From positions 1 through 64,000 of the forward strand of contig JAHHHL010000031.1 in NCBI GenBank assembly GCA_019359375.1: a DNA stretch of 64,000 bases, read 5' to 3'. Positions 2,275 through 26,320 of this stretch are shown here, in pieces. The position numbers and the translations under genes are program-made. The DNA is from Lyngbya sp. HA4199-MV5 (GTDB lineage Bacteria; Cyanobacteriota; Cyanobacteriia; Leptolyngbyales; Leptolyngbyaceae). How positions within the stretch are numbered: the first letter of the stretch is position 1; every line of letters starts with the position of its first letter. Under the pieces are notes generated by a model. The model ran no database searches. It saw nothing but the letters and a program-made list of their open reading frames with translations, and was not told the DNA's origin.

Positions 2275-2526
2275 TCAAGCGTCCTCACCCCCTTTGAGGG
2301 TTTCTGACTCCTTTAGCTCTTGTTCTTTCTGCCGCATCCACGGCTCTAAAGCTTCCTCCATCGCTGCTCCATGATCAATTCCCAGTTGGGCACAAAGCCC
2401 CTTAAAGCGTCGAGCCATCTTTTTGGGAATGTGCCCGCGCACAGCCTCGTAATTAGTGTCATCCTTCTTGCTCACAGGCTCGCAATTATCATTCACTTCG
2501 GGTGTTTCGAGTTGATTTTCCCACAT
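2275..2526 (-). CDS. Small RHH-like DNA-binding protein
   Basis: 83 aa from the ATG at 2526 (a TTG at 2535 would add three residues). The middle part, GHIPKKMARRFKGLCAQLG followed by two further helices, has the strand-helix-helix look of plasmid ribbon-helix-helix proteins, and the C-terminus is acidic (KQEELKE-like). I do not recognise a named family. Two perfect 8-bp direct repeats lie just upstream (2553-2568), as expected for an autoregulated RHH gene. It is convergent with darG. Function is inferred only from shape and context. Confidence 0.55.
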   Translation of the reverse strand: MWENQLETPEVNDNCEPVSKKDDTNYEAVRGHIPKKMARRFKGLCAQLGIDHGAAMEEALEPWMRQKEQELKESETLKGGEDA

Positions 2527-2552
2527 TGCTCCCAATTCTTTAACGGTTGTGA

Positions 2553-2568
2553 CTTCGTAACTTCGTAA
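2553..2568. promoter_or_regulatory. Tandem 8-bp direct repeats between divergent genes
   Basis: CTTCGTAA occurs twice in a row (2553-2560, 2561-2568) between the leftward RHH-like gene and the rightward gene at 2652. A TATAAT at 2575-2580 could be a -10 for the rightward gene, and the same A/T stretch read on the other strand (TATTAT) could serve the leftward gene. Tandem short direct repeats are the usual RHH operator form; binding is inferred. Confidence 0.45.
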
Positions 2569-2651
2569 CTGTGCTATAATACTATTACTTTCGGCTTCGC
2601 GCAGGAGCTTGAGAAGTTGAGGAAGATGGCTTTTTGCAGTAGGTCGGCGTA

Positions 2652-2975
2652 TTGCAGTGGAAGATCACCGTGGTTGATAAAACATCTCGAGTTTTACATA
2701 CGTTAGTTTCAGACGAAACTTCTAGCCTTCTACCATTAGCCAAATTCCATCTAGGCGATCGCGTTTGCTGGTTCCGTGTTTCCACTCAAGACTTTGGCGT
2801 TGTCATAGACCGCTTTTATGGCACAGAAGGGAGTGTACAGGCACTCGGTTGGCACTACACCATCCAGCTCGATTCCAGCAGCCCCTCCTTTGCCCACTGC
2901 AAGATCGACTACGGCTTCGAGGAGGATCTAGCGTTAATGGATCGAGATCTGGGGGGTGCAGATGCAGTTGACTGA
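2652..2975 (+). CDS. Unknown small beta-rich protein, module copy 1
   Basis: 107 aa from a TTG start. I do not recognise the family. Residues about 30-97 (KFHLGDRVCW, FGVVIDRFYG, GWHYTIQLD, then FEEDLAL) align well with the protein at 3366-3710 (KFEIGQTVLW, FGTIIGLVYA, GYHYAIALD, FEDDLEL), so the two are paralogues. The alternating hydrophobic pattern with a G-x-x-V-x-W motif looks like a small SH3-like barrel; that is inference. Its end overlaps the start of the next gene, suggesting coupled translation. Confidence 0.65.
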   Translation: MQWKITVVDKTSRVLHTLVSDETSSLLPLAKFHLGDRVCWFRVSTQDFGVVIDRFYGTEGSVQALGWHYTIQLDSSSPSFAHCKIDYGFEEDLALMDRDLGGADAVD

Positions 2976-3231
2976 TACTCAAACTCAGCTCTTAGAGCAG
3001 CTTGTAGCACTGCCGTTGCTAATGCCGGATGACTTTGTTGCCCGTTGGACAATGAGCTATCGAGAGATCAGCCAGATTTGCTGCTGTTCCACCTCAACCG
3101 TCGAACACTGGTTTAGCACAGGAGCCGGACGGAGAGCACCCGCTCAGTGCTACCAAAAGCTGTTAGCGATCGCCGATTTTCTGCTGACCAATGTTGATGC
3201 CATTCACTACTGGCAGCAACTCTGGGAATAA
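2962..3231 (+). CDS. Small HTH protein, module copy 1
   Basis: 89 aa from the ATG at 2962, chosen because a G-run (GGGGGG) sits just upstream; a GTG at 2956 is in frame. YREISQICCCSTSTVEHWF reads as a helix-turn-helix, followed by the signature HWFSTGAGRR. The protein at 3725-4030 has the same layout (YPDIARLTGVTRDTVSHWF, STGRGSRE), so the two are clear paralogues. It overlaps the preceding gene by 14 bp. Probably a DNA-binding partner of the preceding small protein; no named family recognised. Confidence 0.65.
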   Translation: MQLTDTQTQLLEQLVALPLLMPDDFVARWTMSYREISQICCCSTSTVEHWFSTGAGRRAPAQCYQKLLAIADFLLTNVDAIHYWQQLWE

Positions 3232-3365
3232 GTGAAGGAATGTTGCGTTCGAGGTTGTCAATTTGACAGATGTCTTGTCGGCTCAACAGGGATTTAGGAA
3301 GCAATGATCATGAATGAGCAACCGCAGCTTTTAATGGCAAATAGGCTGATTTTTACTGCGCTTTT

Positions 3366-3710
3366 ATGAGCAACTCAAATCCACCACCTTCTCACCTTTC
3401 CGTTCCCGTTCGACCCGACCCCAACCTGATCATCACCCCGATTTGCTTGACTGCATCCTTACCAGAGCAGTTTGCCGCACCCAAGTTTGAGATCGGACAA
3501 ACCGTGCTGTGGGCGAGGGTGGCTACCCACGGCTTTGGCACCATCATTGGACTGGTCTATGCTCACAGCGTCAGTGTTGAGGCAGTTGGCTACCACTATG
3601 CGATCGCCCTGGATGACAATAGTCCTTCACGAGCAGATTGTGCAGCGGACTGGGCTTTTGAGGACGACCTGGAACTTGTTGCCACCCATGCCCATTTACT
3701 GCAAGCGTGA
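3366..3710 (+). CDS. Unknown small beta-rich protein, module copy 2
   Basis: 114 aa. Paralogue of the protein at 2652-2975: shared G-x-x-V-x-W, FG-x-I-I, G(W/Y)HY-x-I-x-LD, SPS and FE(E/D)DL motifs in the same order. It has an extra N-terminal stretch of about 38 residues rich in Pro and Ser. The stop overlaps the possible GTG start (3707) of the next gene. Function unknown. Confidence 0.65.
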   Translation: MSNSNPPPSHLSVPVRPDPNLIITPICLTASLPEQFAAPKFEIGQTVLWARVATHGFGTIIGLVYAHSVSVEAVGYHYAIALDDNSPSRADCAADWAFEDDLELVATHAHLLQA

Positions 3711-3724
3711 AGGAGCGATCGTCT

Positions 3725-4030
3725 ATGTATCCCACGCATCGCCAATGGACGCTATTTGAGCGCTACAAAAACTGCCCGCCGCCGATGTCACCTCGCACCT
3801 TTCTTCAGCAGTGGGCGCTAGATTATCCTGACATTGCTCGCTTGACCGGTGTAACTAGAGATACTGTGTCCCACTGGTTCAGCACTGGTCGAGGTAGCCG
3901 GGAAGTGCCAATTCACCATTGCCGGCGATTGGCAACCATTGACTTCTTTTGGCGCAACCCGGATCGCATTCCACAAGATTTACTGGATGAATGGTGTGGT
4001 TTATTAGAAGACTCAGAACCGCAATCTTAA
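3725..4030 (+). CDS. Small HTH protein, module copy 2
   Basis: 101 aa from the ATG at 3725, which has AAGGAG 9 bp upstream; an in-frame GTG at 3707 overlaps the previous gene. The predicted helix-turn-helix DIARLTGVTRDTVSHWF and the following STGRGSRE match the HTH protein at 2962-3231. The gene pair therefore repeats the pair at 2652-3231. Function unknown; DNA binding inferred from the HTH. Confidence 0.68.
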   Translation: MYPTHRQWTLFERYKNCPPPMSPRTFLQQWALDYPDIARLTGVTRDTVSHWFSTGRGSREVPIHHCRRLATIDFFWRNPDRIPQDLLDEWCGLLEDSEPQS

Positions 4031-4045
4031 TTGACTAATTGACTT

Positions 4046-4085
4046 ACTTCATAAACCTGTGTTGTCACGACAGAAATTGCTTGTC
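4046..4085. repeat. Dispersed imperfect palindromic repeat, copy A
   Basis: ACTTCATAAACCTG then TGTTGTCACGACAG then AAATTGCTTG. The core TGTCACGACA is an imperfect dyad. The same arrangement (CTTCA-x-AAA, Y-CTGTCG-n-CGACAG core, then a TTG-rich tail) occurs at 5081-5122 and 13393-13433, and the core plus tail again at 13639-13672. It lies between the stop at 4030 and the start at 4154. Confidence 0.5.
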
Positions 4086-4153
4086 CAAAACCTAATCCAT
4101 GAACAAAATCTGAAAAGCGATGATCCATTTATGGAAGCAGCTTAAAGAAACTC

Positions 4154-5071
4154 GTGGACGCTCAACTCCCACTCTCATTGAAGCAATTTATTCGCAGACA
4201 GCCCTACCTCTACCGGAAGCTCTGCTTCTGGGCAAGTCAGCGTAGCTTAGATGACCCGACAGCGCAGGTGAATCAGTACCTGACCCAACTCGTGCTAGAG
4301 ACCGATGCCCAAGGCGATCGCGCTGCCTTACTTCAACAGTGGTTAAAAGTGCTGACTCCTCAAGAACGGATCAGTTTGGCGCAACTGAGTCCAATTTCAA
4401 TTCGAGATTATCCAGGTGGGTCAGGCTGGTATGCCTTGCAGAAAGGCGAGTACAGTGTTATCGCTGAACCTGTGCTGCATGAAGTTTGCCACGCAGGACA
4501 GCAACAGGCAATCATTACCCGTAATCGCTACAACTGCCTGATACTGAACACAAAAAACTTATTGATAGTTGATGTAGACCTTGGCGATCCAAACTCGACT
4601 GATTATCCAGATTGTGCGGTGAGCTGCCAAATTGCAATTAGTCAACAACAAGCGATCGCGGCTTTGGAAGCGATCGTCCAGCAATTTCCCCAACTGAGCT
4701 TTCGCGTCTATCGAACTCGCAATGGGTTGCGTTATCTTTGTACAACCCGACCCTTTGACCCCTTAGATCACACCACCCATCGGTTGATGCAGAACCTTTA
4801 TGTTGATCCGCTTTACGCCCGCTTGTGCAAATTCCAGGCAACCTTTCGAGCACGCCTGACTCCCAAGCCGTGGCGAATTGAAACCGATGAACAGGAACGG
4901 TTTGTCTACGATCGCACCACAGGATTGGTATTGCCAGACTATCGCTCCTACGCCGTTTGCCATTTTGTCGAAATCGTTGGAGAGCCAACAATCCTCCCCG
5001 CATTTGAGTCAGCCATTCAAGTTCATGATTCCTTTTGCCGAGTCAATCAATTGGCGCTGGAGTTGGCATGA
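4154..5071 (+). CDS. Conserved unknown protein with DVD motif (possible primase-like fold)
   Basis: 305 aa from a GTG start. I recognise a widely spread but unnamed protein type with LLIVDVDLGD (D140, D142), FRVYRTRNGLRYLCTT (about 183-198) and a conserved FRARLTPKPWR (about 231-241). A hydrophobic strand ending in D-x-D followed by later beta strands recalls the catalytic core of archaeo-eukaryotic primase-like enzymes, where the two Asp bind metal. I cannot identify the expected His motif, so this is a weak inference. It is bracketed by two copies of the palindromic repeat (4046 and 5081). Confidence 0.6.
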   Translation: MDAQLPLSLKQFIRRQPYLYRKLCFWASQRSLDDPTAQVNQYLTQLVLETDAQGDRAALLQQWLKVLTPQERISLAQLSPISIRDYPGGSGWYALQKGEYSVIAEPVLHEVCHAGQQQAIITRNRYNCLILNTKNLLIVDVDLGDPNSTDYPDCAVSCQIAISQQQAIAALEAIVQQFPQLSFRVYRTRNGLRYLCTTRPFDPLDHTTHRLMQNLYVDPLYARLCKFQATFRARLTPKPWRIETDEQERFVYDRTTGLVLPDYRSYAVCHFVEIVGEPTILPAFESAIQVHDSFCRVNQLALELA

Positions 5072-5080
5072 GGCAAGCCC

Positions 5081-5122
5081 ACTTCACAAATCTCTGTCGC
5101 CGCGACAGGGATTGATTGCACC
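5081..5122. repeat. Dispersed palindromic repeat, copy B
   Basis: ACTTCACAAATCTCTGTCG then CCGCGACAGGGATTGATTG. The core CTGTCGCCGCGACAG is a perfect dyad (CTGTCG/CGACAG with a 3-nt centre). It matches copy C (13393-13433) over about 35 bp with few differences and copy A more loosely. It sits in the short gap between genes ending at 5071 and starting at 5179. Confidence 0.6.
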
Positions 5123-5178
5123 AAGCCACGGCATTCTCTTCAATAAGACGCAGCACGGTATGTAGGTGTACGCTCGAC

Positions 5179-6084
5179 ATGAATGCATTCCAGAAGCGCT
5201 CCCGCTCAAGTTCAAAACTAGCTGGCATCATTGATCGCCAAACAGATTTGGCAAACTGCCACTCCCAAGAAATCATGAAGGCTTTGATGCTACAACAGCC
5301 AGACCCAATCACGATGCAGCGAGTTTTGCACGACTTAGTCCGGCATCCCGAATACTGGGATGCATTTGTGACAGGACCTCGATTACCAGCAACAGAGCAG
5401 GTCGCAGATCCAGGAACTCTAATTTGTCTACGAGACCTATTTATTGGCTGGAACACCGACACCCTTTACGTGCTAGCACCCAACGCTCAACGGGCGCGAT
5501 CGCTCAAGACACTGGCGAAAGGATGGAACTGCACCGAGGTCATGCTTCACCCCCCTGAAACGGTTCAACGTTTGGTGGGTAAATATCTTATGAGCGGACA
5601 AAGCCTGGTTTCAGCATACTGGCAGCACCCTGCTCTCCTAGATGAGGAGTTTGATTTTGACACAATCTATGACCTGACCGAACCACTCCAATTCGATGAT
5701 CTGCCGGAGTTGGGAAAATGCCCACCTCAAGTACTAATGGCTGGCTTATTGCTGAAGCACGGCTCTGAGCGCTTTCATGCTCCCACCATTCTGAAGGACC
5801 TGCAATCCTGTCCTCAGTGGTGGTACAGCTTCGTTGCCGGACCTGCTTTACCCAACTCAACCACAGGAATTGCAAATCGCTTGAGTGGTCTGCGTGGCTT
5901 TCCCGACTACTGGTGGACGGATTGTCTATACCTCTGGTCACGCAGTCAAGCTGCTGCCATTCAACTCAAAGCACTGGGTCAAAGCTGGTCGTGTAAAACA
6001 GCCACGATTCTTGAGAGTTCGGAATCCGCTCGACTTCTGGCGCTGCCCAAAAGTTCGCCTGTCGTTGTTCTGTCTTGGCGGTAG
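5179..6084 (+). CDS. Unknown protein with two internal repeats
   Basis: 301 aa from the ATG at 5179; a TTG at 5116 would add 21 residues but runs into the palindromic repeat, so the ATG is preferred. The protein holds two diverged copies of one domain of about 95 residues: the first has LHDLVRHPEYWDAFVTGP, CLRDLFIGWNTDTLYV and LAKGWNCTEVML; the second has LKDLQSCPQWWYSFVAGP, GLRGFPDYWWTDCLYLW and LGQSWSCKTATIL. I recognise no family. The genes around it are also unknown and on the same strand, so it may belong to a 4154-8189 operon. Confidence 0.65.
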   Translation: MNAFQKRSRSSSKLAGIIDRQTDLANCHSQEIMKALMLQQPDPITMQRVLHDLVRHPEYWDAFVTGPRLPATEQVADPGTLICLRDLFIGWNTDTLYVLAPNAQRARSLKTLAKGWNCTEVMLHPPETVQRLVGKYLMSGQSLVSAYWQHPALLDEEFDFDTIYDLTEPLQFDDLPELGKCPPQVLMAGLLLKHGSERFHAPTILKDLQSCPQWWYSFVAGPALPNSTTGIANRLSGLRGFPDYWWTDCLYLWSRSQAAAIQLKALGQSWSCKTATILESSESARLLALPKSSPVVVLSWR

Positions 6085-6096
6085 TTAGGGGAGAAA

Positions 6097-7185
6097 TTGA
6101 CAGTGCCACTTTTTGCTATCCTGCACATCGATCTTCAGGGACTGCATCGCCACAGTTGCACGTTAGTTGAGGCTGCATCGCTCACCGAGGTTGCTCAACA
6201 CATGCTCACCAATCCAGACCGTTGGCAGGCAGCACTTGAATATAGTTACCCGAACGACGATGATTGCCGTAGTCTACGCATTCGAATTGGGGCAGATGAC
6301 CTGACACCACACGACCTTTTGACGCTCATTGGTCAAACAGAGCCGGATCAACATTTGGCTGAAATGCTGCGAATTTATCCAGTAGAGATTCAAATGCTTG
6401 ATCAAGTGCAAATAAAAACTCGCTTGCTGGATGAAAATGCGAGTCAAATCCATTCCAGTGGAACCCTTCCGGCAGAACCGACACCTACGACTACGACTGA
6501 GGCTTCTCCATCCCAGATCCTCTCTGCCTACACAGCCTTGCAGCACCAAAAAAGGAAAGAAATAACTACTCAACTCCAGCAGGTACACGATCGTTTTGCT
6601 CAGCAGCTACAGGCTGTGCAGCAGCAGGAACAGAAGTTTGTGAACACTCAAGCAGACTTGCTCAATCAACTTCGTCATCAACTGGCAATCGATGCGCGAT
6701 CGCTCCTGTTGACCCCCAATTTTCAAGACTATTTGCAGGTGTTGTTAGAGCAGGATATTTGGAGATACAGCCAGTTGCGCTTTCAACTCCCTACCTCAGA
6801 CCTTTCAAACTGGTTAATCCCCACCCTTGAGTTTCCAGTGCAGTTAGTCGTTCAGATGAATCAGCCCGACGAAGAGACCGTTGATGTTAATCATTGCATC
6901 GAGATGACGGTTGGAGTAGGACTTTGGCAGCAGAACTTAAGAATTCCTACAGTCACCATCAATGATGAAAATCTCAACTATCCGGGTGCTTATGATACGG
7001 AGCAGCAATGGTTGACTACAGGTCAACATTTGAAACAATCGATTGAATCTGAGCCATTTGGATTTGTCGTTTCACCAAACTTGTCATCTACTCAACACTC
7101 GCAACTGATCATGGAATTAACTTGCTTATTGGCTTATGTCACGCAGTTGTTTAATCTGAATCACACGTGTTTCACTCAGGATTGA
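6097..7185 (+). CDS. Unknown protein with central coiled coil
   Basis: 362 aa from TTG 6097 (a GTG lies at 6103). It starts 12 bp after the previous stop. The N-terminal 120 residues look globular, followed by a Pro/Thr-rich linker (PAEPTPTTTTEASP) and a Gln-rich coiled coil of about 60 residues (QQVHDRFAQQLQAVQQQEQ). The C-terminal 150 residues are again globular. No known domain recognised. Spacing of 6 bp to the next gene suggests an operon with it. Confidence 0.6.
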   Translation: MTVPLFAILHIDLQGLHRHSCTLVEAASLTEVAQHMLTNPDRWQAALEYSYPNDDDCRSLRIRIGADDLTPHDLLTLIGQTEPDQHLAEMLRIYPVEIQMLDQVQIKTRLLDENASQIHSSGTLPAEPTPTTTTEASPSQILSAYTALQHQKRKEITTQLQQVHDRFAQQLQAVQQQEQKFVNTQADLLNQLRHQLAIDARSLLLTPNFQDYLQVLLEQDIWRYSQLRFQLPTSDLSNWLIPTLEFPVQLVVQMNQPDEETVDVNHCIEMTVGVGLWQQNLRIPTVTINDENLNYPGAYDTEQQWLTTGQHLKQSIESEPFGFVVSPNLSSTQHSQLIMELTCLLAYVTQLFNLNHTCFTQD

Positions 7186-8717: not shown

Positions 8718-8723
8718 AGCGTT
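8718..8723. repeat. Target site duplication, left copy
   Basis: AGCGTT directly precedes the left end of the IS element and is repeated at 11395-11400 directly after its right end. Confidence 0.8.
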
Positions 8724-8867
8724 TATCAGATGACAATGAGCAAGTCGGGGGACGACAGTGAGAGCGGCGGTTAAAGTGCACCCGCTAATCGGCTCACTTT
8801 GAGCCTCTGGCGAACGAAGAAAAAGACACTCTGAGGTGGTTCCGCTCGCGAAAGGGAAACGCCAAGA

Positions 8868-10598
8868 GTGTCTGGAAAAATCAAACCATATCAAACCCGA
8901 GTGTATATGACTGCACGAGAGCAAGGCTTCACGCAAGTGGCAGCCGCAGCGTTGGCTGGGTTTTCAGAACGCAGCGGACAACGCCTTGAAGCGGGAGAGC
9001 ATCAACCCAATCGCGGTCGTGTACGGGATTGGCGCAGCAGTCCCGACCCGTTAGCCGTGGTGTGGGACACCGAGCTAGAACCGTTGCTGAGAGCAGCACC
9101 AAAATTACAACCGATGACCTTGTTCGAGCTGCTGCAAGAGCGCTATCCGGGTAAGTACCCGCAAGTGTTACGGACTTTGCAACGGCGAGTGCAAGCCTGG
9201 AAAGCGCTGCACGGCGATGCCAAAGAAGTCATGTTTGCGCTACGGCATGAACCGGGAATGATGGGCTTGTCTGACTTCACCGAACTCAAAGGGGTTGAGA
9301 TTACCATTGGGGGCAAGCCGTTTGAGCATTTGTTATACCACTATCGCCTGGCTTACAGCGGCTGGCAGTATGCCGAGGTCATCCAGGGTGGTGAAAGTTT
9401 CATTGCCTTAGCCGAAGGGTTGCAGAATGCGCTCTTTGCCTGTGGCGGCGTGCCAAAGCAGCATCGCACCGACAGCTTGAGTGCCGCCTACCGTAACATG
9501 GGGGGCGTGCGCAACAAGCCCTTGACCCGGTTATACGATGAATTGTGTGACCATTATCGGATGCAGCCAACGCGCAACAATACCGGGATTGCCCATGAGA
9601 ATGGCTCGATTGAATCGCCGCATGGTCATCTCAAAAACCGCGTTGAGCAAGCGTTATTGCTACGCGGCAGTTATGACTTTGCAAGTATTGCTCAGTACCA
9701 AGCCTTCATTGACAGTGCGATTGCCAAATTGAATGCACAGCACACAGTCAAGATTGAGGCAGAGCAACAGCAACTTAAACCGTTGCCGAAATACCGCGTC
9801 CCGGATTACGAAGTTTTGACCGCAAAAGTGAGTTGTCGTAGCACGATTGACGTGCGCTGTGTCTTGTATACAGTGCCTGCCCGACTCATTGGTCGCCAAC
9901 TTGAACTGCATTTGCACCACGACCGCATCTTAGGCTATTTGGGCAAGCAACAAGTGCTGCAACTCCCTCGGCTGCGAGTCACAGACAAGGAAAAACGACG
10001 GGCACGCTGCATCAACTATCGTCATGTCGCCGAAGGACTGCGCCGCAAGCCCAGAGCCTTTTTGTACTGTACCTGGCAGCAAGACTTATTGCCCAACGCC
10101 ACTTGGCGTGAAGTCTGGCAGCAGTTGCAGACGCGGTTTGACCTCGACAGTGCCGCCATCCTCATCGTCGAAGCGTTGTACATTGCGGCGACCCAAAACC
10201 AAGAAGTGGCGGTGGCAAACTACCTCCAAAACCAACTCAATGCCAGCACGTTGACGCTGGTGGGCTTACGCCAGCAGTTTCAATTACTGAGTGCGCTGGG
10301 TTTGCCTGACCTAAACATTACCCAACATGACCTCTCAAACTATGACCAACTCTTGCAACCTGCCCGCGCCGACCAGCCCCTATCAGAACCTCAGCCTCTA
10401 CCTCAAGCAACTGCACCTGTCACACATGCTGCATCACTGGGAGAGCGTCGAGCAGCAGGCAATGCAAGAGAGTTGGTCTTACGCTCAATTCTTGCTGGCT
10501 CTGTGCGAATTGGAAGCGCAACGCCGTTGGACGGTGCGGCTCCAACGCGCCCTCGTCGAAGCGCAACTGCCAAACGGAAAAACGGTTTCCAACTTTGA
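8868..10598 (+). CDS. istA: IS21-type transposase IstA
   Basis: 576 aa. An N-terminal HTH region (residues about 10-45, VAAAALAGFSERSGQRLE) is followed by an integrase-type DDE domain: D in LSDFTELKG, D in HRTDSLSAAY and E in HENGSIESPHGHLKNRVEQ. A beta-barrel-like domain follows (YTVPARLIGRQLELHLH). IstA proteins normally end near LNITQHDLSNYDQLL; here the frame continues for about 90 residues through istB in another frame, giving a 272-bp overlap. The tail is Ala/Pro/Arg-rich and does not look like a domain. Acts with IstB on the element's ends. Confidence 0.92.
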   Translation: MSGKIKPYQTRVYMTAREQGFTQVAAAALAGFSERSGQRLEAGEHQPNRGRVRDWRSSPDPLAVVWDTELEPLLRAAPKLQPMTLFELLQERYPGKYPQVLRTLQRRVQAWKALHGDAKEVMFALRHEPGMMGLSDFTELKGVEITIGGKPFEHLLYHYRLAYSGWQYAEVIQGGESFIALAEGLQNALFACGGVPKQHRTDSLSAAYRNMGGVRNKPLTRLYDELCDHYRMQPTRNNTGIAHENGSIESPHGHLKNRVEQALLLRGSYDFASIAQYQAFIDSAIAKLNAQHTVKIEAEQQQLKPLPKYRVPDYEVLTAKVSCRSTIDVRCVLYTVPARLIGRQLELHLHHDRILGYLGKQQVLQLPRLRVTDKEKRRARCINYRHVAEGLRRKPRAFLYCTWQQDLLPNATWREVWQQLQTRFDLDSAAILIVEALYIAATQNQEVAVANYLQNQLNASTLTLVGLRQQFQLLSALGLPDLNITQHDLSNYDQLLQPARADQPLSEPQPLPQATAPVTHAASLGERRAAGNARELVLRSILAGSVRIGSATPLDGAAPTRPRRSATAKRKNGFQL

Positions 10599-13750: not shown

Positions 13751-13864
13751 AGCAATCTAAATTACTATGAACTAGCCTCGACGTTACTGGAAGTCCAGTC
13801 ATGTGAACAAAAGAAACATGAGGGGCAATTAAGCGTTTCAACCAAGTTAAAAGTAGTATTGACA

Positions 13865-13879
13865 AACTTGAATCAAGTT
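13865..13879. promoter_or_regulatory. 15-bp dyad overlapping the translation start region
   Basis: AACTTGAATCAAGTT is a perfect dyad (7-bp arms, central A) ending directly before ATG 13880. A TTGACA at 13859-13864 lies just before it. A protein bound here would block both transcription and ribosome access; possible autorepression by the HTH-containing product is inference. Confidence 0.45.
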
Positions 13880-14407
13880 ATGGCATCGAGGTCGAACAAT
13901 TCTAAAGTGAAGGGTGTCTGGCTAGTTGCCATCCCGATCAATCAAGAATTCTCACAACCTCAATTTCATTTTGGAGAAAGAGTCAAATGGTGGGTAGAAA
14001 CCAAATCAACAAGAAATTGGTTGACAGGACGCATCAAGGGTATGTGGTTTACAGAGAAATATGAATGGGAGTACTGGGTTGAGGTTGATCCTAAAAGTGT
14101 AGATGGACTGGAGTTGGAAGATTCAACCACACTAAGAGAATCAGCTTTGAAGTTTGTAAAGGATGCCAACTCAACCCGTGAATTTCTGCAACCGATTAGC
14201 GAGTGGCAACCCACTCACCTGGCTGCTACATTCTTGGGGTTGTCTCCGGATCAATTACGGAACCTACGACTTAGGGGAGTCTTTGTCGAGGGGCAGCATT
14301 ATCGAGATACCAGTTTGCCTAACAGCGCACGACCATGTTGGCAGTGGCATGTGGAACGATGCAATCAACAGTTAGCGAAGAAGCGTAAAAGCGTCAAAGA
14401 TGGTTAA
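13880..14407 (+). CDS. Unknown protein, SH3-like N-terminus fused to a HTH-like C-terminus
   Basis: 175 aa from ATG 13880 (TTG 13859 also in frame). The N-terminal part (QFHFGERVKWW, then strands through EYWVEVD and a later LRESALKFV) resembles the small proteins at 2652 and 3366. The C-terminal part (HLAATFLGLSPDQLRNLRLRG, then GQHYRDTS and WQWHVERC) has the look of an excisionase/MerR-like winged helix. So the two functions that are separate genes at 2652-4030 may be joined here; that is inference. Its stop overlaps the convergent gene's stop by 4 bp. Confidence 0.6.
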   Translation: MASRSNNSKVKGVWLVAIPINQEFSQPQFHFGERVKWWVETKSTRNWLTGRIKGMWFTEKYEWEYWVEVDPKSVDGLELEDSTTLRESALKFVKDANSTREFLQPISEWQPTHLAATFLGLSPDQLRNLRLRGVFVEGQHYRDTSLPNSARPCWQWHVERCNQQLAKKRKSVKDG

Positions 14408-15426
14408 TTCCCGTCGCTGTCGGCGGTGCCCAATAAGTAAAACCAGGCAATTTGAACTCCGCGCGAACCACGCTTAGACGGGGCACACCCTAAACCATAT
14501 CGGGCATATTTCTCCTTGGCATTTTTATGCTCTGCAATCAAGCAAAAGGCAGTTTTGCTGAAAGGATAGCCGCATTGTTTAGCCATCTCATAAGCTTTAG
14601 CAGGAGTCAACCATTGCGTTGTCTCTGAAGTGGGTGCATCTGCTGTAACCTCACTGGTTACAGATGAATTGGATTGGGAGGTCACTGCAACTGAATTAGG
14701 GCGATCCTGATCGGGCAAATGACCATCCGATTCTGATGCTGAATTCGCTTTTGCTGCGGAACTATCGCTAGACGCTCCATTTAAACTTTCAACCGGAGTT
14801 GCAGGGTCAGTTGAACAGTCATTATGACCTGCTACACCATTATTCTTCGTTTCGCTAGGATGCTCCTCATCTTTATTCAAAGGATTATCTATTCCTGAAT
14901 TCTGTTCTAGGTTCAGAGTCTGGAGTAGCTTAAGAAGTTGTTGAATCTGACACTGGATCTCATCAGGAGCGATAGGAGGGTCAAGATCAGGATTGACTTC
15001 AGAGTTTTTAGGGTCTGAATCAGAGGAGGCATGAGCAGCAGGATTGGAATTATGTGCTTCGAGACTGGACAAGCGGCGCTCTAATGCTGATGTCGATGCT
15101 AAAATCTGATCTTTCAATATAAGGAACTGATGCTCCAGGAGCGATAGCCGACTGGAGAGGGACATTACCTCAAGACTGTTTGCCAATAATCGACTAAGTT
15201 GACTCAGCTCATTTTCTAGAGCAGGGGAAGTAGGGTGCTGATTCATGTTTAGGAGAGACCGAGTTGGTATTGGAGGTGTAGGGGGATTTGACAATGGTTG
15301 GACAATGTATTGCTGACAAATATGGTTAACTAGGTCTGTCAAGCTAACTCCTTCAGTTTGCGCTCTCTCTCGCAATGCGCTTTTAAGTTCTTCTGAGAAT
15401 TTAAGGTTTGTTTGTTTCTCTGACAT
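14404..15426 (-). CDS. RHH-type DNA-binding protein with coiled coil and C-terminal HTH-like domain
   Basis: 340 aa from ATG 15426, which has GGAGAAA 7 bp upstream; an upstream in-frame start at 15495 is less likely. The N-terminus LKFSEELKSALRERAQTEG followed by SLTDLVNHICQQY is a ribbon-helix-helix domain. A leucine-rich coiled coil follows (LSRLLANSLEVMSLSSRL and on), then a long Ser/Asn/Asp-rich linker, and a C-terminal WLTPAKAYEMAKQCGY domain with AFCLIAEHKN and YARYGLGC that looks DNA-binding. Plausibly a plasmid or recombinase regulator. Palindromes 90 and 165 bp upstream may be its operators. Confidence 0.6.
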   Translation of the reverse strand: MSEKQTNLKFSEELKSALRERAQTEGVSLTDLVNHICQQYIVQPLSNPPTPPIPTRSLLNMNQHPTSPALENELSQLSRLLANSLEVMSLSSRLSLLEHQFLILKDQILASTSALERRLSSLEAHNSNPAAHASSDSDPKNSEVNPDLDPPIAPDEIQCQIQQLLKLLQTLNLEQNSGIDNPLNKDEEHPSETKNNGVAGHNDCSTDPATPVESLNGASSDSSAAKANSASESDGHLPDQDRPNSVAVTSQSNSSVTSEVTADAPTSETTQWLTPAKAYEMAKQCGYPFSKTAFCLIAEHKNAKEKYARYGLGCAPSKRGSRGVQIAWFYLLGTADSDGN

Positions 15427-18023: not shown

Positions 18024-20699
18024 ATGGCGAAGGAAGTCTCTCGAAATCGCGACAGCATTGTCTTATCTGAAGCGGGTCGAAAACGCCTCAAGCGATTGAT
18101 GGATCGGCATGCCTACTCGATCGCGGCTTTGGCACATGAAGCTGAGACCGGGGAGAACCAGGTTAAGAAGGCGTTGGATGGTAGAGCGATCGATCGAAAA
18201 ACCGTTTGGAAACTAGCAAAGGTATTCCACGCTGAGGCGGTTGATCTGATCGATGCAAGAGATTGGCAAGTATACTGCACTCAGCGGGCAAGAGCGTACC
18301 TGCAACTAACCACCTCACCCATTCTTTCTAGGGAAGGTGCTGCCCCTAACTGGCAAGAGTACCAGATTGATGTTGAGCTAGAGTTGCGACAACAGCAATT
18401 ACCTCTGAAGCGAACTAGCTATTCCCTGCAGGAAGGGAGTGACTTATTTACACTGTCCCCTGATGAAGTTATCCACACTGATTCAATCCCTGCTTTCCTA
18501 GAGCGCATCTTTAAAGCTGACAATTTACGTACTGCCCAACGCATTGCTGTGACAGGACCATTGGGTGCAGGAAAAACGAATTGCCTACAGCGGATGATTG
18601 CCTGGCTTTTATCTCATCCTCAGTACGGGATACCTATCTGGATTCCAGCAGCAGCATTGCAAGCTTCAACGACGGTAGAAGATTATTTACGAACCAACTG
18701 GTTAGCGGGAGAACGAGTATCTGGGCTTGACTGGGAGGAGTTTTTAATTGAATTAACGGAAGGACGCATCTGGCTTTTTCTGGATGCCGTAGACGAATGT
18801 GGGGGCAATGCGATGTCCAGCCTAGCAAGTCTGAAAGTTCAACTGACGAAGTGGTTAACCCATGCCCATCTTGTGATCTCGTGCCGCGGTACTGTTTGGG
18901 ATCTCGAATCTAATCCATTGCGACCTCAGTTTAACGTGTACTGCATCAAACCATTGCATTACGGTAATTCAGCGCAAACCGATCAAGTTCAAGAATTTAT
19001 CAACGTGCGATTTCGACACAATCCCAAGCAAGGAGTGCAGTTAAGACATCGCTTGGAACGCTCTGAGAATCGATCGCTTAAGAATTTAGTTCGCAATCCA
19101 TTTTGTCTGGAACTTCTATGCTATCTGTGGCAGATTTGGCAGCGAAGTCCGAACCGACTACGCTGGAATCGCTTACCGCAAACCCGCTTTGAGCTGTATG
19201 AGTGGTACGTCCATTACTTGGTTGATGTATGGCGCCCTCAATCTGGAAGCAGAGAACTACAATTCAGCCCAATCTTACTGGCGATTCAAGTGCTTGCCCT
19301 CCGTGCACTATTGGAGGAGCGATCGCCTTTTCGGATACGTCACGCCTTTATTTTGGAGGTATGGCAGTCTGAAGGATTTGATCCAGATTGGTTAGAACTT
19401 CTTAAGCAAAACGGTATCCTAAGTCTGATTGGACATGCTCAGGAAAATGCTGCAGAGGATGTTTACAGCTTCCTGCATCCGGTGTTCCAGAGCTATTTTG
19501 CTGCCAGAGCCGTTGAACGTCACCAAGTTCTGTTTGATCCCTGTGGTGAACCAGGAACTTATGTCGCACTAGAGTTGCACTTTTGGGAGGTGGTATTGCT
19601 CTACCTCGAACGCCCACTCTCAAGTTCAAGTATTCTAAGTTCAGATAAAGAAGCGCTGCTGCAAGCCTTGTCCGAATTTAACGATCAATTTAGTGGATTC
19701 TACACGTTTAGAGCACGGCTCCTTGCTGCCACTGGCATCAACTGCTATGAAAGATTCACTCAAAAAGAAAAGGTGGTTGATTCGATTGCGTGTTGGAGTT
19801 GTAGAATCCTTGACCCAAACCAAAGTGAGTTCTTAACTTTGTCACCTGGTTATATAGAAAAGTATGCAACTCAGGCGTTACTCGAAACAGATGCTGTTCA
19901 AGCTCTGGCTTCTCTCAAAAAATTATTGAAGAAGACACCTCAGCAGACGGTAGAAACTCACCTGAGAATTATTGATCGACTTCTACAAATTGAAGGAGGA
20001 AAACAGATTGCGTTTCGGGAAATCCGCTATTTATCACAGCAATCTCTGATGACTCAACTTCAATTACTACCAGTGCTGCACAAGTTTTTTCGCATCTATG
20101 AACCTGATGATACGGAGTCGATGAATCAGATTAAATCTGTGTTACTTTCGAATACGCAAGATGAATCCAATGTGGCAATCCTTCGCCTCCAAGCGACACT
20201 CTCGTTGAGAGAGATTGATTTCGAACACCCAGCAATCGCAGAAACTTTAGCGCAACTTAGATCAGCTTCTAATCAGGAGGTGGTTCAAGTTGCAAGGGTT
20301 CTCCATCAGTGGTTGGTAGATGGAAATCCAAGCGTACAGAATCTGCTGTATGGCGAAGACGGTTACTACCGTTATTACTCGTTAGAGGAAATTGATGTGT
20401 TACTTGCAGAAAGCAATCATCAACTACGTTCTCAGTCAATAATCGCTGCGGAAGTGCTGACCCAACTTGCAATGGCTATCAAGACGGACGGAAATTTTAG
20501 AGTTACGTTTCAAGGGGAACGCTTAATTCGACTTTTCAGTATCTTTAAACGGATTATCCGTAATTATAATGCGGCATCCGGGCAAGATGAAATCAGATTG
20601 ACTTCTTCGTTACTCACTTGCTTTGAGCTAATCAATATTTGCTCTGAACAGTTGCCGTACCCACAAGTGTTCTCTGCTTGGCTCACGGCTACCTCATAA
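18024..20699 (+). CDS. HTH-NACHT STAND NTPase with helical C-terminus
   Basis: 891 aa. Residues about 14-80 form a Cro/C1-like HTH (YSIAALAHEAETGENQVKKAL). The NACHT ATPase follows: Walker A VTGPLGAGKTNCL (about 175-187), Walker B IWLFLDAVDECGG (D254, D257, E258) and the sensor-like HLVISCRGT. Beyond about residue 480 are helical, HEAT-like repeats. This architecture is common in cyanobacteria. NACHT proteins in bacteria are STAND-type switches, several of them shown to be anti-phage; the N-terminal HTH rather than a toxic effector makes a regulator equally possible. Start supported by its own divergent position. Confidence 0.82.
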   Translation: MAKEVSRNRDSIVLSEAGRKRLKRLMDRHAYSIAALAHEAETGENQVKKALDGRAIDRKTVWKLAKVFHAEAVDLIDARDWQVYCTQRARAYLQLTTSPILSREGAAPNWQEYQIDVELELRQQQLPLKRTSYSLQEGSDLFTLSPDEVIHTDSIPAFLERIFKADNLRTAQRIAVTGPLGAGKTNCLQRMIAWLLSHPQYGIPIWIPAAALQASTTVEDYLRTNWLAGERVSGLDWEEFLIELTEGRIWLFLDAVDECGGNAMSSLASLKVQLTKWLTHAHLVISCRGTVWDLESNPLRPQFNVYCIKPLHYGNSAQTDQVQEFINVRFRHNPKQGVQLRHRLERSENRSLKNLVRNPFCLELLCYLWQIWQRSPNRLRWNRLPQTRFELYEWYVHYLVDVWRPQSGSRELQFSPILLAIQVLALRALLEERSPFRIRHAFILEVWQSEGFDPDWLELLKQNGILSLIGHAQENAAEDVYSFLHPVFQSYFAARAVERHQVLFDPCGEPGTYVALELHFWEVVLLYLERPLSSSSILSSDKEALLQALSEFNDQFSGFYTFRARLLAATGINCYERFTQKEKVVDSIACWSCRILDPNQSEFLTLSPGYIEKYATQALLETDAVQALASLKKLLKKTPQQTVETHLRIIDRLLQIEGGKQIAFREIRYLSQQSLMTQLQLLPVLHKFFRIYEPDDTESMNQIKSVLLSNTQDESNVAILRLQATLSLREIDFEHPAIAETLAQLRSASNQEVVQVARVLHQWLVDGNPSVQNLLYGEDGYYRYYSLEEIDVLLAESNHQLRSQSIIAAEVLTQLAMAIKTDGNFRVTFQGERLIRLFSIFKRIIRNYNAASGQDEIRLTSSLLTCFELINICSEQLPYPQVFSAWLTATS

Positions 20700-21882: not shown

Positions 21883-23007
21883 ATGCCAACCTTTCCTCCT
21901 CACCCTACGCAAGTTGCGACTCGCTTGGCAGTCGGAGTCGTGGAGTTGCAGAAGCAAATTGTGGCGGGAACCTCCTTGCCTGTGACCAGTCCGCAATCTC
22001 AATTTCGGGCTGGATTGGAGCAACTGTCGGTCTTATGCCTTGCACACAGCGTTAGACCGCCTGCTCACCATCAAGAAGCTGTTCAATGGCTGCATACCCC
22101 GATGGAACAGTGGTTGGGATTAGAATCCACGATGGCAACAGCGGGATTGAGTGGGGCGCTGTTGTTTCATGGCGTCCCAACAGAATATGCTTACGATTTG
22201 GCATTTCGAGTCGAGGGTGACAGCAACCTTGAGATTGACGACCTTCTATTCAAGGATATTTTGGAGTACTGCCAGCAGAATCGTTTGGAAGGTCAATACA
22301 CAAATGCTCGTCAGTTTTTAGTTGAACACTCGTGTCTACAGCAGGGCACTCATCTCATCAACAGTAACCTGGATTGGGATAAGCCAATCGCTGAACTCCT
22401 CTGTGCAATTTATGAGCGCATTCCGCTGAAAGCCAGAGTGACTGGAAGCGAAACTGAGATGGTTGCCCTATGCCCTCGCTGCGGCTGGACATTAGAGTGG
22501 TACGGTGATTACGCCTCATGCTATAGCGATCTCTGCGGACGTTTAGTAGAACGAATCCATCATCCCGATCGCTGGATTCCCTATCATCCCGAAATGGTTC
22601 GAGTGAATCGCGGGGTTCAGCAATATGTCGTCGCCCCAGAGCGGATGCTCCTGGTGTTGAAGTCAGCATTAGAACAGATGGGCGCGACCTGTGAACTTTG
22701 GGTTGCCGTTGACAGTTATGACCTCTGGGTTCAATTCCCTTCTGGTGTGCGCTGGGCGATCGACTTGAAGGACTACTCTAGTCCGACTCGCTTGGCTTCA
22801 GCGTTCAAGCCGTTCAAACGTTATCCCGAATGGGATGAATGCTTTTACGTCATTCCTGATTACCGTAAAGTTGGCAACTACAACGAGCAGCTACAGGCAA
22901 CCTGGAAAGCCAGATGCCAACGGGAGCCAGAGCTTCAGGACATCAAAATCTGCTACGTCAAGCAGATGCTCAAAAAAGCTGAACGTGTTGCTGGAGGTCG
23001 GGTATGA
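21883..23007 (+). CDS. pPIWI-RE system REase-like protein (Y domain, Zn-ribbon, PD-(D/E)xK)
   Basis: 374 aa. The first 180 residues are helical and match what is called the pPIWI_RE_Y region. A Zn-ribbon follows: C197-P-R-C200 and, about 17 residues later, CYSDLCG. The C-terminal third is a REase-fold nuclease: YDLWVQFPSG, then WAIDLKDYSS, where D-L-K at about 293-295 is the D/E-x-K motif. It overlaps the helicase gene by 4 bp (ATGA), the first gene of a three-gene island. In the model for these systems the nuclease cuts invading DNA held in an R-loop or similar guide complex; that function is predicted, not shown. A possible -10 (TACTAT) lies at 21854. Confidence 0.82.
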   Translation: MPTFPPHPTQVATRLAVGVVELQKQIVAGTSLPVTSPQSQFRAGLEQLSVLCLAHSVRPPAHHQEAVQWLHTPMEQWLGLESTMATAGLSGALLFHGVPTEYAYDLAFRVEGDSNLEIDDLLFKDILEYCQQNRLEGQYTNARQFLVEHSCLQQGTHLINSNLDWDKPIAELLCAIYERIPLKARVTGSETEMVALCPRCGWTLEWYGDYASCYSDLCGRLVERIHHPDRWIPYHPEMVRVNRGVQQYVVAPERMLLVLKSALEQMGATCELWVAVDSYDLWVQFPSGVRWAIDLKDYSSPTRLASAFKPFKRYPEWDECFYVIPDYRKVGNYNEQLQATWKARCQREPELQDIKICYVKQMLKKAERVAGGRV

Positions 23008-26000
23008 GGAATTGGCAGGATTGGCATAAACCCCTTGTCGAAGCACTCTATTCCCTGCTGGAAGATGGTTCCCTTGTCCGACTAGAGAAACGGGATTGTG
23101 CGCGTCTATTTGAAATTGAGATGCTGATTATGCTGCATGAGCGCATCAACAGCCCTCTCAGCCTCAAGGACACTTGGGCACTCACTACGGGTTACGTCAC
23201 ACCAGAAGTCGCAGAAAATGACCAGTTAAGGCAGCAAGTGGCGATCGCCCGCAATCGAGTTCGCTATCTCCGAACTAAAACCACATTCAACCGCCATTTA
23301 AATTGGTATGCTGAACTTCCTGCCACTATTCGCCTCTACGACGTTTCCCTGGAGTCCAGTACCTACTCTCGCCGCGCTATTCTGCATCATGTTCCTCAGC
23401 GCATTCAAGCGATCGAAGCGGCTCTTTCTACCTCAGCAGAACATACCCCCATCAAAGAGCAGGTTGCCAAAGCCGACACAGAATATGCGTTTTCAACCGA
23501 CACTGGGTATGAAACCATTCGGATTCCCGCAGAATTGATCAACGCCGCCAATACTCTGGCTTCTAAAACAACCCTTCAGCAAATTCCTAAACGGAATCAA
23601 CCCCGTCCCTCTATTATCATTCAGCGGTCAGAACTGCACCAAGCTGCGATCGAACTGAACGTGAAACTGCCAAAACGCGATTGGTTGCGATGGGTTGAGA
23701 ACTTCGAGTTAAGGCTGGTTGCGACCGAGCTTGTTCCTGCTGACTCATTTACGATTGATGGGCTATTTCATTTGCTGGGTCCGACCGGAGCCGGAAAAAG
23801 TACACTCATCTACCTGATTCTTTACCTACTCTGTCAGAAAAACTCCGACTTTCGAGTCACAGTGATTGCCAACACCGTAACCGATGCTTTGAATCTGGCA
23901 TCTGAATTAGAGCAAGCTGGAATTAAGGCGGCTCCAATCTTGGGGCGCGATCGCCAGTCGCACCGTTACCAATACGGCATGGCGCATCGAGACGAACTTG
24001 ATCCGGGGGTGTTGTTTAATCCGCAAGCACCGGAATTAGCCAATCCTGCTCTTCATTGGCTAACCGGAACCTGCATTCTTTCTGGCTTGGTTGAAGAGGG
24101 CATCACACCCGGTCAAGAACCTTGTCACAACCTCGTCTCGATCAAAACGGCGCGCAATCAGCGAAAACCCAGCAGTACCTATACCTGCCCGTTGATGCCC
24201 ATTTGCCCAGTGCATCAGGCAAATCGTGATTTGCTTCAGGCGCAAGTTTGGATTGCCACACCTGCTGCATTCCTCTTCACCGCCATGCCTTTGTCACTCT
24301 CAGGAACTCGCATACGAGCACTAGAAGCGACCTACTATTTCAGCGATCTCTTAATCATTGACGAGGTCGATCGCGTTCAGGTTTCGATCGAAGAACGGTT
24401 TGCACAAGCGACTGATCTAACTGGCAGCCAAAAATCTACGCTCGATACCCTTGAGATGGTTCTGACTGAACAGGAGTATCGAACCGGTAAAACTCGACTT
24501 AACGACAAGCGGCATCGAGAACTGAAAGTAACCGTTCGAGAAGCCAGCCGTCTGGCTGATTGGCTTCTCGGACTTTTATTTGACTACACCCACCTGCGAA
24601 GCTGGGCAGAAGCGCCACTCTACAACACACTGGTTTACGACAATTTAGTCGAAACAGTGAGGTCTCTTACGCCTGCGGAGGTTGACCCAACCCAGCTAGA
24701 GACCGCCCTAACTCAACTGAGGCAAAGCTTTGAGTCTTACTGTCGGCATTCCACTGGCGAACTGGATGCGATCGTTAGCAACGTCAAAAACACGGGAGAA
24801 CTCTTTTTCCATCAGCTTAGAGCCTGGCTCAACTCAGAACTTCCTTTTCCACTTGCTCACACTCCTGCTGCCCAAACGTTTCTAGAACGACTGGGGTTTG
24901 CAGTTGTGTTGAGTGCCCTGGAATATCAGGTGAATAACCTGCTGAAGCAGTGGTCAGGATCTGCACCAGAACTGCAAGAGGGAGTTAACTTCAGCATTCA
25001 CCCACCTGAGGAGTACGTTGACCTGGGAATTGAAACCCCGTTAGGCAATATTCTCGGCTATCAATTTGTGGATCAGACCGGCGAAGGAAGCCCCCGAGGA
25101 ATTCTACGCTACCTCAACTGTCATGGGTTAGGGCGCTATTTACTGCTGCGCTTCCCTTACCTTTATCTCAGCTTATGTGGCGATTACGGACCTCATATCC
25201 TGCTAACCAGTGCCACTTCCTGGTCTCCCGGTTCACCTCAGTTTCACGTTGCCGTACCACCTCATGCGGTCTTAATCCCTCCTTCCAACATAGAAGCGAT
25301 CGCCCATAGCCACTTCGAGTTTTTGCGAGTTCCTGGTCTGAGTGGGGATGGAATCACCGTTAGCGGAAACTTTGGACAATACCGTTATGACAATTTGATC
25401 AAACTGGTTCGCTACCTATCCAGCAGTACGGGGAGTAGTCGTTCCAGGCTGGAGCAAGAGCTTGACTACTGGCAAGCACAGGGTAATCGTCGCGGGATTC
25501 TCTTATTAACGGGAAGCTACTCAGAAGCTCGTTATGTTGCTGATTACCTCCAGTTCTCACATAAATGGAAAGACTTGGTTGATTGCATTGTCAGCGATCG
25601 CGAAACCGAAGAGGATGACTGGCTCTTACGGCGTAGCCTGGCTGAGGAATTTCCTGAACGTAACAAACCAATTCTAGTCACTCCACTGGGCAGCATCCAG
25701 CGAGGGTACAACATTTTAGATCCGCAAACTCAGACTGCGTTTCTAGGCACCGTCTTCTTTCTGGTTCGGCCTTATCCTCAACCCACTGACTTTGGCAGAC
25801 ATATTCGCGGCATCCACAAGTGGGTGACTGAAAACTTACTGCTGGATGCAAATGTCCTATCTACTCAATTAGGGAATAATGCCATTGATGCAATCACACA
25901 GCTTCGCAGTGAGAGCCATCGTCAATGGCGAAGACGACTACGTTCTTCAGCGCTAGGCTCTGCGGCAATGGAAACTGAGTTCTGGCATGAGTTGTGTTGG

Positions 26001-26252
26001 GATCAAATTGTGGTGATCGTCCAGGTACTCGGACGTTTAACGCGCGGTAATGTCCCTATTCGTGCATTTTTCTGTGACAGTGCTTTCCATCCTAAAGATG
26101 CCCGTCGCAGCCTGATTCAAGGGTGGACTGATATATTGGCAGACTACCTTGCTCCTGGCAGCACCAAACCTTTGGTCGAACAGCAGCTCGCACAGTTACT
26201 TTATTGGGCAGTCTACGATCGCCTGTTGGATCTTCAAAAACGGCTTACATAA
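23004..26252 (+). CDS. pPIWI-RE system DinG/XPD-like superfamily 2 helicase
   Basis: 1082 aa. An N-terminal region of about 240 residues corresponds to the Z domain of pPIWI-RE helicases. Walker A LLGPTGAGKSTL lies at about 255-266. Four cysteines, C357, C374, C395 and C401, sit between motif I and motif II as in the Fe-S cluster domain of XPD/DinG. Motif II is DEVD (about 452-455), motif III-like LLTSATSWSPG is near 735, and motif VI is QVLGRLTRGN (about 1006-1015). So it should be a 5'-3' DNA helicase. Translationally coupled to the nuclease gene upstream; the pPIWI-RE gene follows 68 bp later. Confidence 0.85.
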   Translation: MRNWQDWHKPLVEALYSLLEDGSLVRLEKRDCARLFEIEMLIMLHERINSPLSLKDTWALTTGYVTPEVAENDQLRQQVAIARNRVRYLRTKTTFNRHLNWYAELPATIRLYDVSLESSTYSRRAILHHVPQRIQAIEAALSTSAEHTPIKEQVAKADTEYAFSTDTGYETIRIPAELINAANTLASKTTLQQIPKRNQPRPSIIIQRSELHQAAIELNVKLPKRDWLRWVENFELRLVATELVPADSFTIDGLFHLLGPTGAGKSTLIYLILYLLCQKNSDFRVTVIANTVTDALNLASELEQAGIKAAPILGRDRQSHRYQYGMAHRDELDPGVLFNPQAPELANPALHWLTGTCILSGLVEEGITPGQEPCHNLVSIKTARNQRKPSSTYTCPLMPICPVHQANRDLLQAQVWIATPAAFLFTAMPLSLSGTRIRALEATYYFSDLLIIDEVDRVQVSIEERFAQATDLTGSQKSTLDTLEMVLTEQEYRTGKTRLNDKRHRELKVTVREASRLADWLLGLLFDYTHLRSWAEAPLYNTLVYDNLVETVRSLTPAEVDPTQLETALTQLRQSFESYCRHSTGELDAIVSNVKNTGELFFHQLRAWLNSELPFPLAHTPAAQTFLERLGFAVVLSALEYQVNNLLKQWSGSAPELQEGVNFSIHPPEEYVDLGIETPLGNILGYQFVDQTGEGSPRGILRYLNCHGLGRYLLLRFPYLYLSLCGDYGPHILLTSATSWSPGSPQFHVAVPPHAVLIPPSNIEAIAHSHFEFLRVPGLSGDGITVSGNFGQYRYDNLIKLVRYLSSSTGSSRSRLEQELDYWQAQGNRRGILLLTGSYSEARYVADYLQFSHKWKDLVDCIVSDRETEEDDWLLRRSLAEEFPERNKPILVTPLGSIQRGYNILDPQTQTAFLGTVFFLVRPYPQPTDFGRHIRGIHKWVTENLLLDANVLSTQLGNNAIDAITQLRSESHRQWRRRLRSSALGSAAMETEFWHELCWDQIVVIVQVLGRLTRGNVPIRAFFCDSAFHPKDARRSLIQGWTDILADYLAPGSTKPLVEQQLAQLLYWAVYDRLLDLQKRLT

Positions 26253-26320
26253 TTCCTTATCAGTAAAACGGAAAAATCGGCAACCACAATCAACCCCAGA
26301 GAAACAACTCAGGTGACATT

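Follow-up and report, generated by a model that had tools for sequence, protein, structure and literature searches.

Two small genes of no named family stand twice in a row, in the same order, near the start of a cyanobacterial contig, and the locus raises the questions of how the doubled pair arose and what it does. The window analysed consists of the first 64,000 bases of a contig of 80,132 bases, from a genome of 6.9 Mb in 95 contigs, and its close relatives were cyanobacterial. A preliminary description had read the two pairs, here named A1-B1 and A2-B2, as a tandem duplication of a module that could be toxin-antitoxin-like or a regulatory pair with no name.

Genomic features of the two gene pairs

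The four genes lay on the same strand, as shown in Table 1. BLASTP aligned A1 with A2 at 48% identity over 66 amino acids (E 4e-22), and B1 with B2 at 35% identity over 82 amino acids (E 7e-15). The Smith-Waterman score was 170 for A1/A2 against a shuffled maximum of 45, and 114 for B1/B2 against a shuffled maximum of 52; neither was reached in 1000 shuffles, which ruled out chance resemblance. The two-gene module seen twice in the same order was thereby upheld. Start codons were uncertain, with relatives pointing to ATG 2962 for B1 and ATG 3725 for B2, the latter 14 bp past the A2 stop, so the coupling described for pair 2 stands as close spacing and not as a sure overlap. Between A2 and its nearest relative (L004) dN was 0.132 and dS 1.013, while for B2 the values were 0.048 and 1.218; the method was usable only for pair 2 against L004, dS being saturated or not computable elsewhere. 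Judged by these rates, pair 2 is under purifying selection. No Rfam match was found in the window.

Table 1. Features of the A-B locus and of the remote A-like protein in the window
Feature	Positions	Strand	Remarks
A1, small beta-rich protein, lineage 1	2652..2975	+	107 aa, start uncertain; BLASTP to A2, profile, tree
B1, XRE-like HTH protein, lineage 1	2956..3231	+	91 aa, likely start ATG 2962; BLASTP to B2, profile, tree
Candidate operator TTGTCAATTTGACAG, before A2-B2, between B1 and A2	3255..3269		9/10 consensus letters
Second, degenerate copy TTGTCGGCTCAACAG, 20 bp further on	3275..3289		8/10 consensus letters; matches of this quality expected about 36 times in 64 kb
A2, small beta-rich protein, lineage 2	3366..3710	+	114 aa; BLASTP, profile search, tree, dN/dS to L004
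B2, XRE-like HTH protein, lineage 2	3707..4030	+	107 aa, likely start ATG 3725; BLASTP, profile, tree, all-helical model
Remote A-like N-terminus with unassigned C-terminus, membership doubtful	13859..14407	+	Profile and shuffle scores

Other features were recorded around the pairs. Just upstream of A1-B1, positions 463-2152 encode a DarTG-like toxin-antitoxin pair, made up of DarT (PF14487, 2e-64) with a macro-domain protein, and by eye a macro-domain relative likewise lay upstream of the pairs in L005. The pairs are followed by three genes with no clear Pfam family (4154-7185); look-alikes of these followed A1-B1 in L005, and one of the first gene followed A2-B2 in L004 (both by eye). Farther along are a NACHT-type protein (18024-20699), a pPIWI_RE three-gene defence island (21883-29074) and a single frame in which a tyrosine integrase is fused to a PRiA4_ORF3 domain (36460-38112).

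Phylogenetic analysis of the pairs

Trees of 26 pairs, constructed without L005_5290, L005_5478, L103, L108 and L019, placed the two pairs of the window in separate clades. Pair 1 clustered with L005_9135 and L006_3970, and pair 2 with L004, L005_5869 and L006_5959. The constraint of both groups to a single clade was weakly rejected (p-AU 0.046 for A and 0.024 for B). The separate clades speak, at this weak level of support, against a recent local duplication, and the tandem duplication of the preliminary description was not supported. Pairs 1 and 2 are probably members of two old lineages that co-occur. Both lineages were found together in three places, namely the window, a Stenomitos MAG (L005) and plasmid 3 of Leptolyngbya NIES-3755 (L006), and Phormidium tenue (L004) retained pair 2 with a B1-like remnant. 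Another A-B-A-B run was present in L177. The A and B trees of the 26 pairs mirrored each other (r 0.81, 0 of 2000 permutations, with shared host history not removed by permuting), as would be expected of a co-inherited unit. A phage origin was rejected, with 0 matches in 50,697 phage records and none among viral contigs in a search sensitive to close relatives only.

Protein families and predicted fold

Neither A nor B of the window matched a Pfam, PHROG or NCBIfam family above cut-off, and A matched no toxin family; B showed weak helix-turn-helix (HTH) hits only. The model of B2 was all-helical (pLDDT 66.9) and resembled the repressors Aca10, Aca1 and HigA2 at Z 6.0-6.5 (6.0 for HigA2), the highest Z being 6.7 on a scale where values below 8 can mean a common arrangement only. 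Foldseek returned 0 matches at E 0.001 or better for this model. Low-scoring FTO matches for B in the solved-structure search looked spurious and were dismissed. B is read, with moderate structural support, as an XRE-like HTH protein. The model of A (pLDDT 39.5) was too poor for fold search and was discarded, and A had no sequence match in the PDB.

A distant protein (Table 1, last row) had been described as apparently an A-type N-terminus joined to an HTH-like part. Its N-terminus matched A marginally (15.2 bits), and its scores against A1 and A2 were reached by 1 and 3 of 1000 shuffles, respectively. The HTH part did not hold, since the scores against B1 and B2 were reached by 814 and 517 of 1000 shuffles and no HTH family in Pfam matched the protein. 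Any kinship with A would be remote.

Distribution of A, B and C

The B profile matched 31 of 386 cyanobacterial genomes (E 1e-4) and the A profile 13 of them, and among 144 relatives of the host 28 were matched by the A profile. The weaker hits of the B profile may come from HTH proteins of another kind, and the B loci from the 386-genome search (L069-L107) are the stronger matches only. The fresh loci referred to below were picked from the A matches among the 144 host relatives. Near-duplicates (L018, L020, L078, L081 and also L085) were removed before counts; L020/L084 and L018/L081 were loci reached twice, and L179, which is the L005 region, was left out of the fresh-locus operator counts and kept among the 47 A frames.

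B stood beside A or inside its frame in 14 of 15 A matches of the 386-genome sample, and the single A match without B was a fragment of 66 amino acids (L108). In another 40 loci a same-strand B was close to 44 of the 47 A frames; the remaining three were two frames in L178, a locus cut off by the end of its contig, and a single frame in L216. The single A-B fusion, a frame of 341 amino acids, was found in L069. B was widespread without A. By the refutation criterion of the preliminary description, homologues occurring singly, the outcome was divided: A was almost never alone and B often was.

A third small family, C, was present in 20 of 39 B loci and was not found at the window pairs. Its members have no Pfam family, carry the pattern HPWCIIR...VARFRRR.DA... 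and in many loci directly follow B (for example L078 10312-10524); in L008, L009 and L012 a longer N-terminal part was joined to C in a fusion or stood in its place. The module is an unnamed (A)-B-(C) family, in which A and C are not always present, and B is cyanobacterial within the searched data, weak hits apart. The orphan protein A represents a small new family whose partner is already at hand.

B relatives at cas12k in type V-K CRISPR-transposons

Cas12k was identified by NF038191, and the 50 loci obtained comprised 48 distinct ones (L151 and L152 repeat L136 and L138), including some fragments. The gene divergent from cas12k, with representatives checked by Pfam, was MerR-like in 22 loci, of the ribbon-helix-helix type in 10, an XRE gene in 2 from a single genome and B in 5, and was not found in 9. 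The later loci L201 and L209 also had B divergent from cas12k, and the A-B pair itself occupied this place in L206. In a rapidly built Cas12k tree with 45 rows, some of them fragments or on long branches, the B-type rows lay to one side of a branch (support 93) and called for one change. The contig of the window had no Cas12k match, and the window pairs are not in the cas12k position. In two further loci (L074 and L075) A-B-C stood near genes read as tnsB, tnsC and tniQ; with NCBIfam, one gene of L074 gave general transposase matches below cut-off and another gave none.

According to the available part of a survey of type V-K systems (PMC9938897), CvkR is a MerR-type repressor of the type V-K CAST that acts at cas12k, and a regulator was present in 86 of 118 systems (CvkR in 53, Arc_1 in 22, Arc_2 in 11). 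B at cas12k is absent from that part of the survey, and a literature search found no B-like regulator type; within the literature covered, a B-type cas12k regulator appears to be new. Such proteins may have been overlooked because no domain model matches them: B of L131 had no Pfam family at E 0.1, and the CvkR-like protein of L115 matched MerR_1 at 3e-14.

Individual cas12k loci showed further features. The XRE (HTH_3) gene divergent from cas12k in L126 and L139 (genome G167) is a regulator type besides MerR, ribbon-helix-helix and B. A MerR protein divergent from cas12k in L154 (624-1517) has an HSDR_N-like C-terminal part, and four CvkR fusions like it are reported in the available part of the survey (PMC9938897). 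In L103, from the host's own genome, a Cas4-like protein (8720-9376; TIGR00372, 1.7e-8, below cut-off) lies beside Cas12k and B, and a B copy adjoining A (15061-15416) is broken across two frames and is therefore probably a pseudogene.

B relatives in CRISPR adaptation operons

With cas genes in unannotated loci assigned via BLAST to annotated loci, cas2 lay within 2 kb on the strand of B in 15 of 39 B loci of the 386-genome sample; in the plasmid set, where L084 repeats L020, cas2 was within 2 kb in 6 of 18 loci. The usual order began with RT-cas1 and/or cas1, followed by cas2; next came, in many loci, a small gene and, in some, A, with B behind these and C often last. A B subfamily held an accessory position in RT-Cas1/type III-B loci, and the window pairs did not.

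The small gene between cas2 and B (L022 5372-5632 and 12 relatives) was seen in CRISPR loci only, and its 13 members share an invariant YRSLRTHRY block. Two of the 13 had a weak ParE_toxin match (E 0.011, below cut-off), and DUF6694 and PAS_3 were the only families that matched more members. No solved-structure relatives were found for the small gene or for a neighbour of 305 amino acids.

Candidate operator palindrome

The cas12k/B intervals shared a 15-bp palindrome, judged by eye to be exact or nearly so in all five, which was located in the divergent intergenic region beside the start of B. Across all loci, the perfect form TTGTC-N5-GACAA occurred 9 times in the 80,357 bases that lie no more than 350 bp from A/B frames, and once in the other 964,423 bases. 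The H class comprised B proteins with HW in the recognition helix, which is the HWFSTG-x-G-R motif of the preliminary description. With near-duplicates removed this class had 7 sites near and 0 far (p 4e-8), and 3 near with 0 far when the discovery loci were left out (p 8e-4), in Fisher tests that take positions as independent. None of 19 half-site permutations gave more than 1 site near. The strict form was absent from 10 fresh H-class loci; the relaxed form TGTCA-N3-TGACA, loosened after looking, gave 6 near and 0 far in 39 fresh loci (p 1.3e-4), and both fresh B/cas12k junctions (L201, L209) held a site with 9 of 10 letters.

For the G/R class, the motif AGGTCA-N3-TGACCT, picked by enumeration, gave 5 near and 0 far and was dropped as an operator after it was not reproduced in 15 fresh loci. 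Its core GTCA-N3-TGAC had 8 near, three of them from one genus, and 5 far (p 6e-7), and 0 near in the 15 fresh G/R loci.

The core of the window site, TGTCANNNTGACA (3256-3268), occurred once in the 64-kb window against 0.15 expected, and the site was kept in L004 and L006 and had one change in L005. The position and much of the sequence of the second copy were kept in all three. Pair 1 had no site of its own in front. In the same genome, the cas12k/B junction on contig C89 holds TTGTCACTGCGACAA, which has a common consensus with the window site. A promoter search at 2500-4250 found none that stood out (1 found, 1.6 expected). The palindromes were rejected as terminators, with no T-tract in 19 flanks and no terminator-like site at 2500-4250, and a wide regulon was rejected because the host genome contained 5 perfect sites and a reversed control gave 6.

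Proposed function and alternative explanations

Given the observed homology, co-inheritance, gene positions and clustering of sites, it is considered reasonably probable that B is a local operator-binding repressor with A as its small partner, and that the window holds two members of old lineages of this regulator module. As to binding, B would attach as a dimer to the 15-bp palindrome beside its own gene (TTGTC-N5-GACAA for the HW class). It would target and repress its own gene as well as the gene or operon next to it, in the manner of CvkR at cas12k. A, co-produced with B, would most likely tune B, be it in dimerisation, in affinity for DNA or in the response to a signal. Within the window the predicted site of action of B1, B2 or both is 3255-3289, ahead of A2-B2. 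The earlier suggestion of a regulatory pair with no name gained from the predicted HTH fold, the lack of a library family above cut-off, the palindromes clustered at the B gene and the relatives at the regulator position of V-K CASTs.

The main rival, to which we give a modest chance, is a type II toxin-antitoxin system in which A would be the toxin, and B an HTH antitoxin with a second role as repressor of the operon; for the CRISPR operons this reading casts the ParE-like small gene as toxin, with B as its antitoxin, in the HigBA gene order. The near-constant presence of B beside A fits this rival, but is also expected of any two-part complex, and the single A-B frame of L069 speaks against it. 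The likeness of the B model to HigA2 is set against the frequency of solitary B, which at cas12k has no known small toxin-like partner. The ParE similarity of the small gene also counts in its favour, yet it is below cut-off and is surpassed in members matched by DUF6694 and PAS_3, and A itself lacks a toxin family match. For A-B as such, with B widespread without A and no sign of A as a toxin, the toxin-antitoxin label is the less supported one.

A plasmid housekeeping pair for copy number, partition or transfer control, locally duplicated and with its CRISPR and CAST positions due to hitch-hiking, is unlikely. Plasmid relatives do lie near ParG/ParB (L009), CyRepA1 (L011) and MobB (L013), and the A-B-A-B run of L177 would agree with local duplication; the different clades of pairs 1 and 2 do not, and numerous members are located in CRISPR operons or next to cas12k, on large contigs of several megabases as well. 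Least likely of all, B (with A and C) would bind near CRISPR leaders or transposon ends and aid spacer acquisition or transposition, not transcription, as its place in the cas1-cas2 operon and a palindrome about 380-400 bp before the CRISPR array in L096-L098 might suggest, but B and its sites also occur with no CRISPR or transposase nearby (window, L004, L014) and the cas12k site adjoins the B start between divergent genes.

Returning to the local repressor, B relatives are at the control position of CRISPR immunity and of CRISPR-transposons, and by analogy the family probably acts as on/off switches for both. For V-K CRISPR-transposons, silencing inside the host is known to be exerted by the MerR repressor CvkR, whose place is taken by B-type proteins in one part of the Cas12k tree. 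The family is also found in spacer-acquisition operons and brings a predicted operator, so it is readily testable. Its interest lies in this tie to CRISPR-transposon control and spacer acquisition rather than in the doubled pair. There is a slim chance that the B proteins of the window act in trans on a CRISPR-transposon of the same cell. Given the consensus common to the window site and the C89 junction, an element with A-B pairs might in that case keep resident type V-K CASTs and CRISPR adaptation operons silent, or be adjusted by them. If so, mobile elements would police each other's RNA-guided machinery through a shared repressor code, A would be the switch and the doubled pairs would carry two repressor specificities.

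Comparison with known systems

Like A-B, the HigBA and ParDE type II systems have a pair of small genes in linkage, one of them for an HTH partner; A-B differs in lacking a recognised toxin and in that its HTH protein is often alone. The HTH core of the B model aligns with Aca1, Aca10, HigA2 and restriction controller (C) proteins at Z 4-6.5, but B has no sequence match to them, and has extra helices round the core, the partner A and the gene C. RtaC and RtbC, the Xre regulators of type I-F3 CASTs, would resemble B as co-opted HTH regulators of RNA-guided transposons, whereas they belong to another CAST type and other hosts; they are set apart on their description in the available part of PMC11406308. 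The closest parallel in position is with CvkR, Arc_1 and Arc_2, which like B are small DNA-binding proteins (predicted for B) encoded divergently from cas12k; in both cases a palindrome of 15 bp lies in the junction and the type follows the Cas12k tree. B is distinguished from them as neither MerR nor ribbon-helix-helix and by having no Pfam family, and its palindrome TTGTC-N5-GACAA differs from the CvkR motif AnnACATnATGTnnT given in the available part of PMC9938897.
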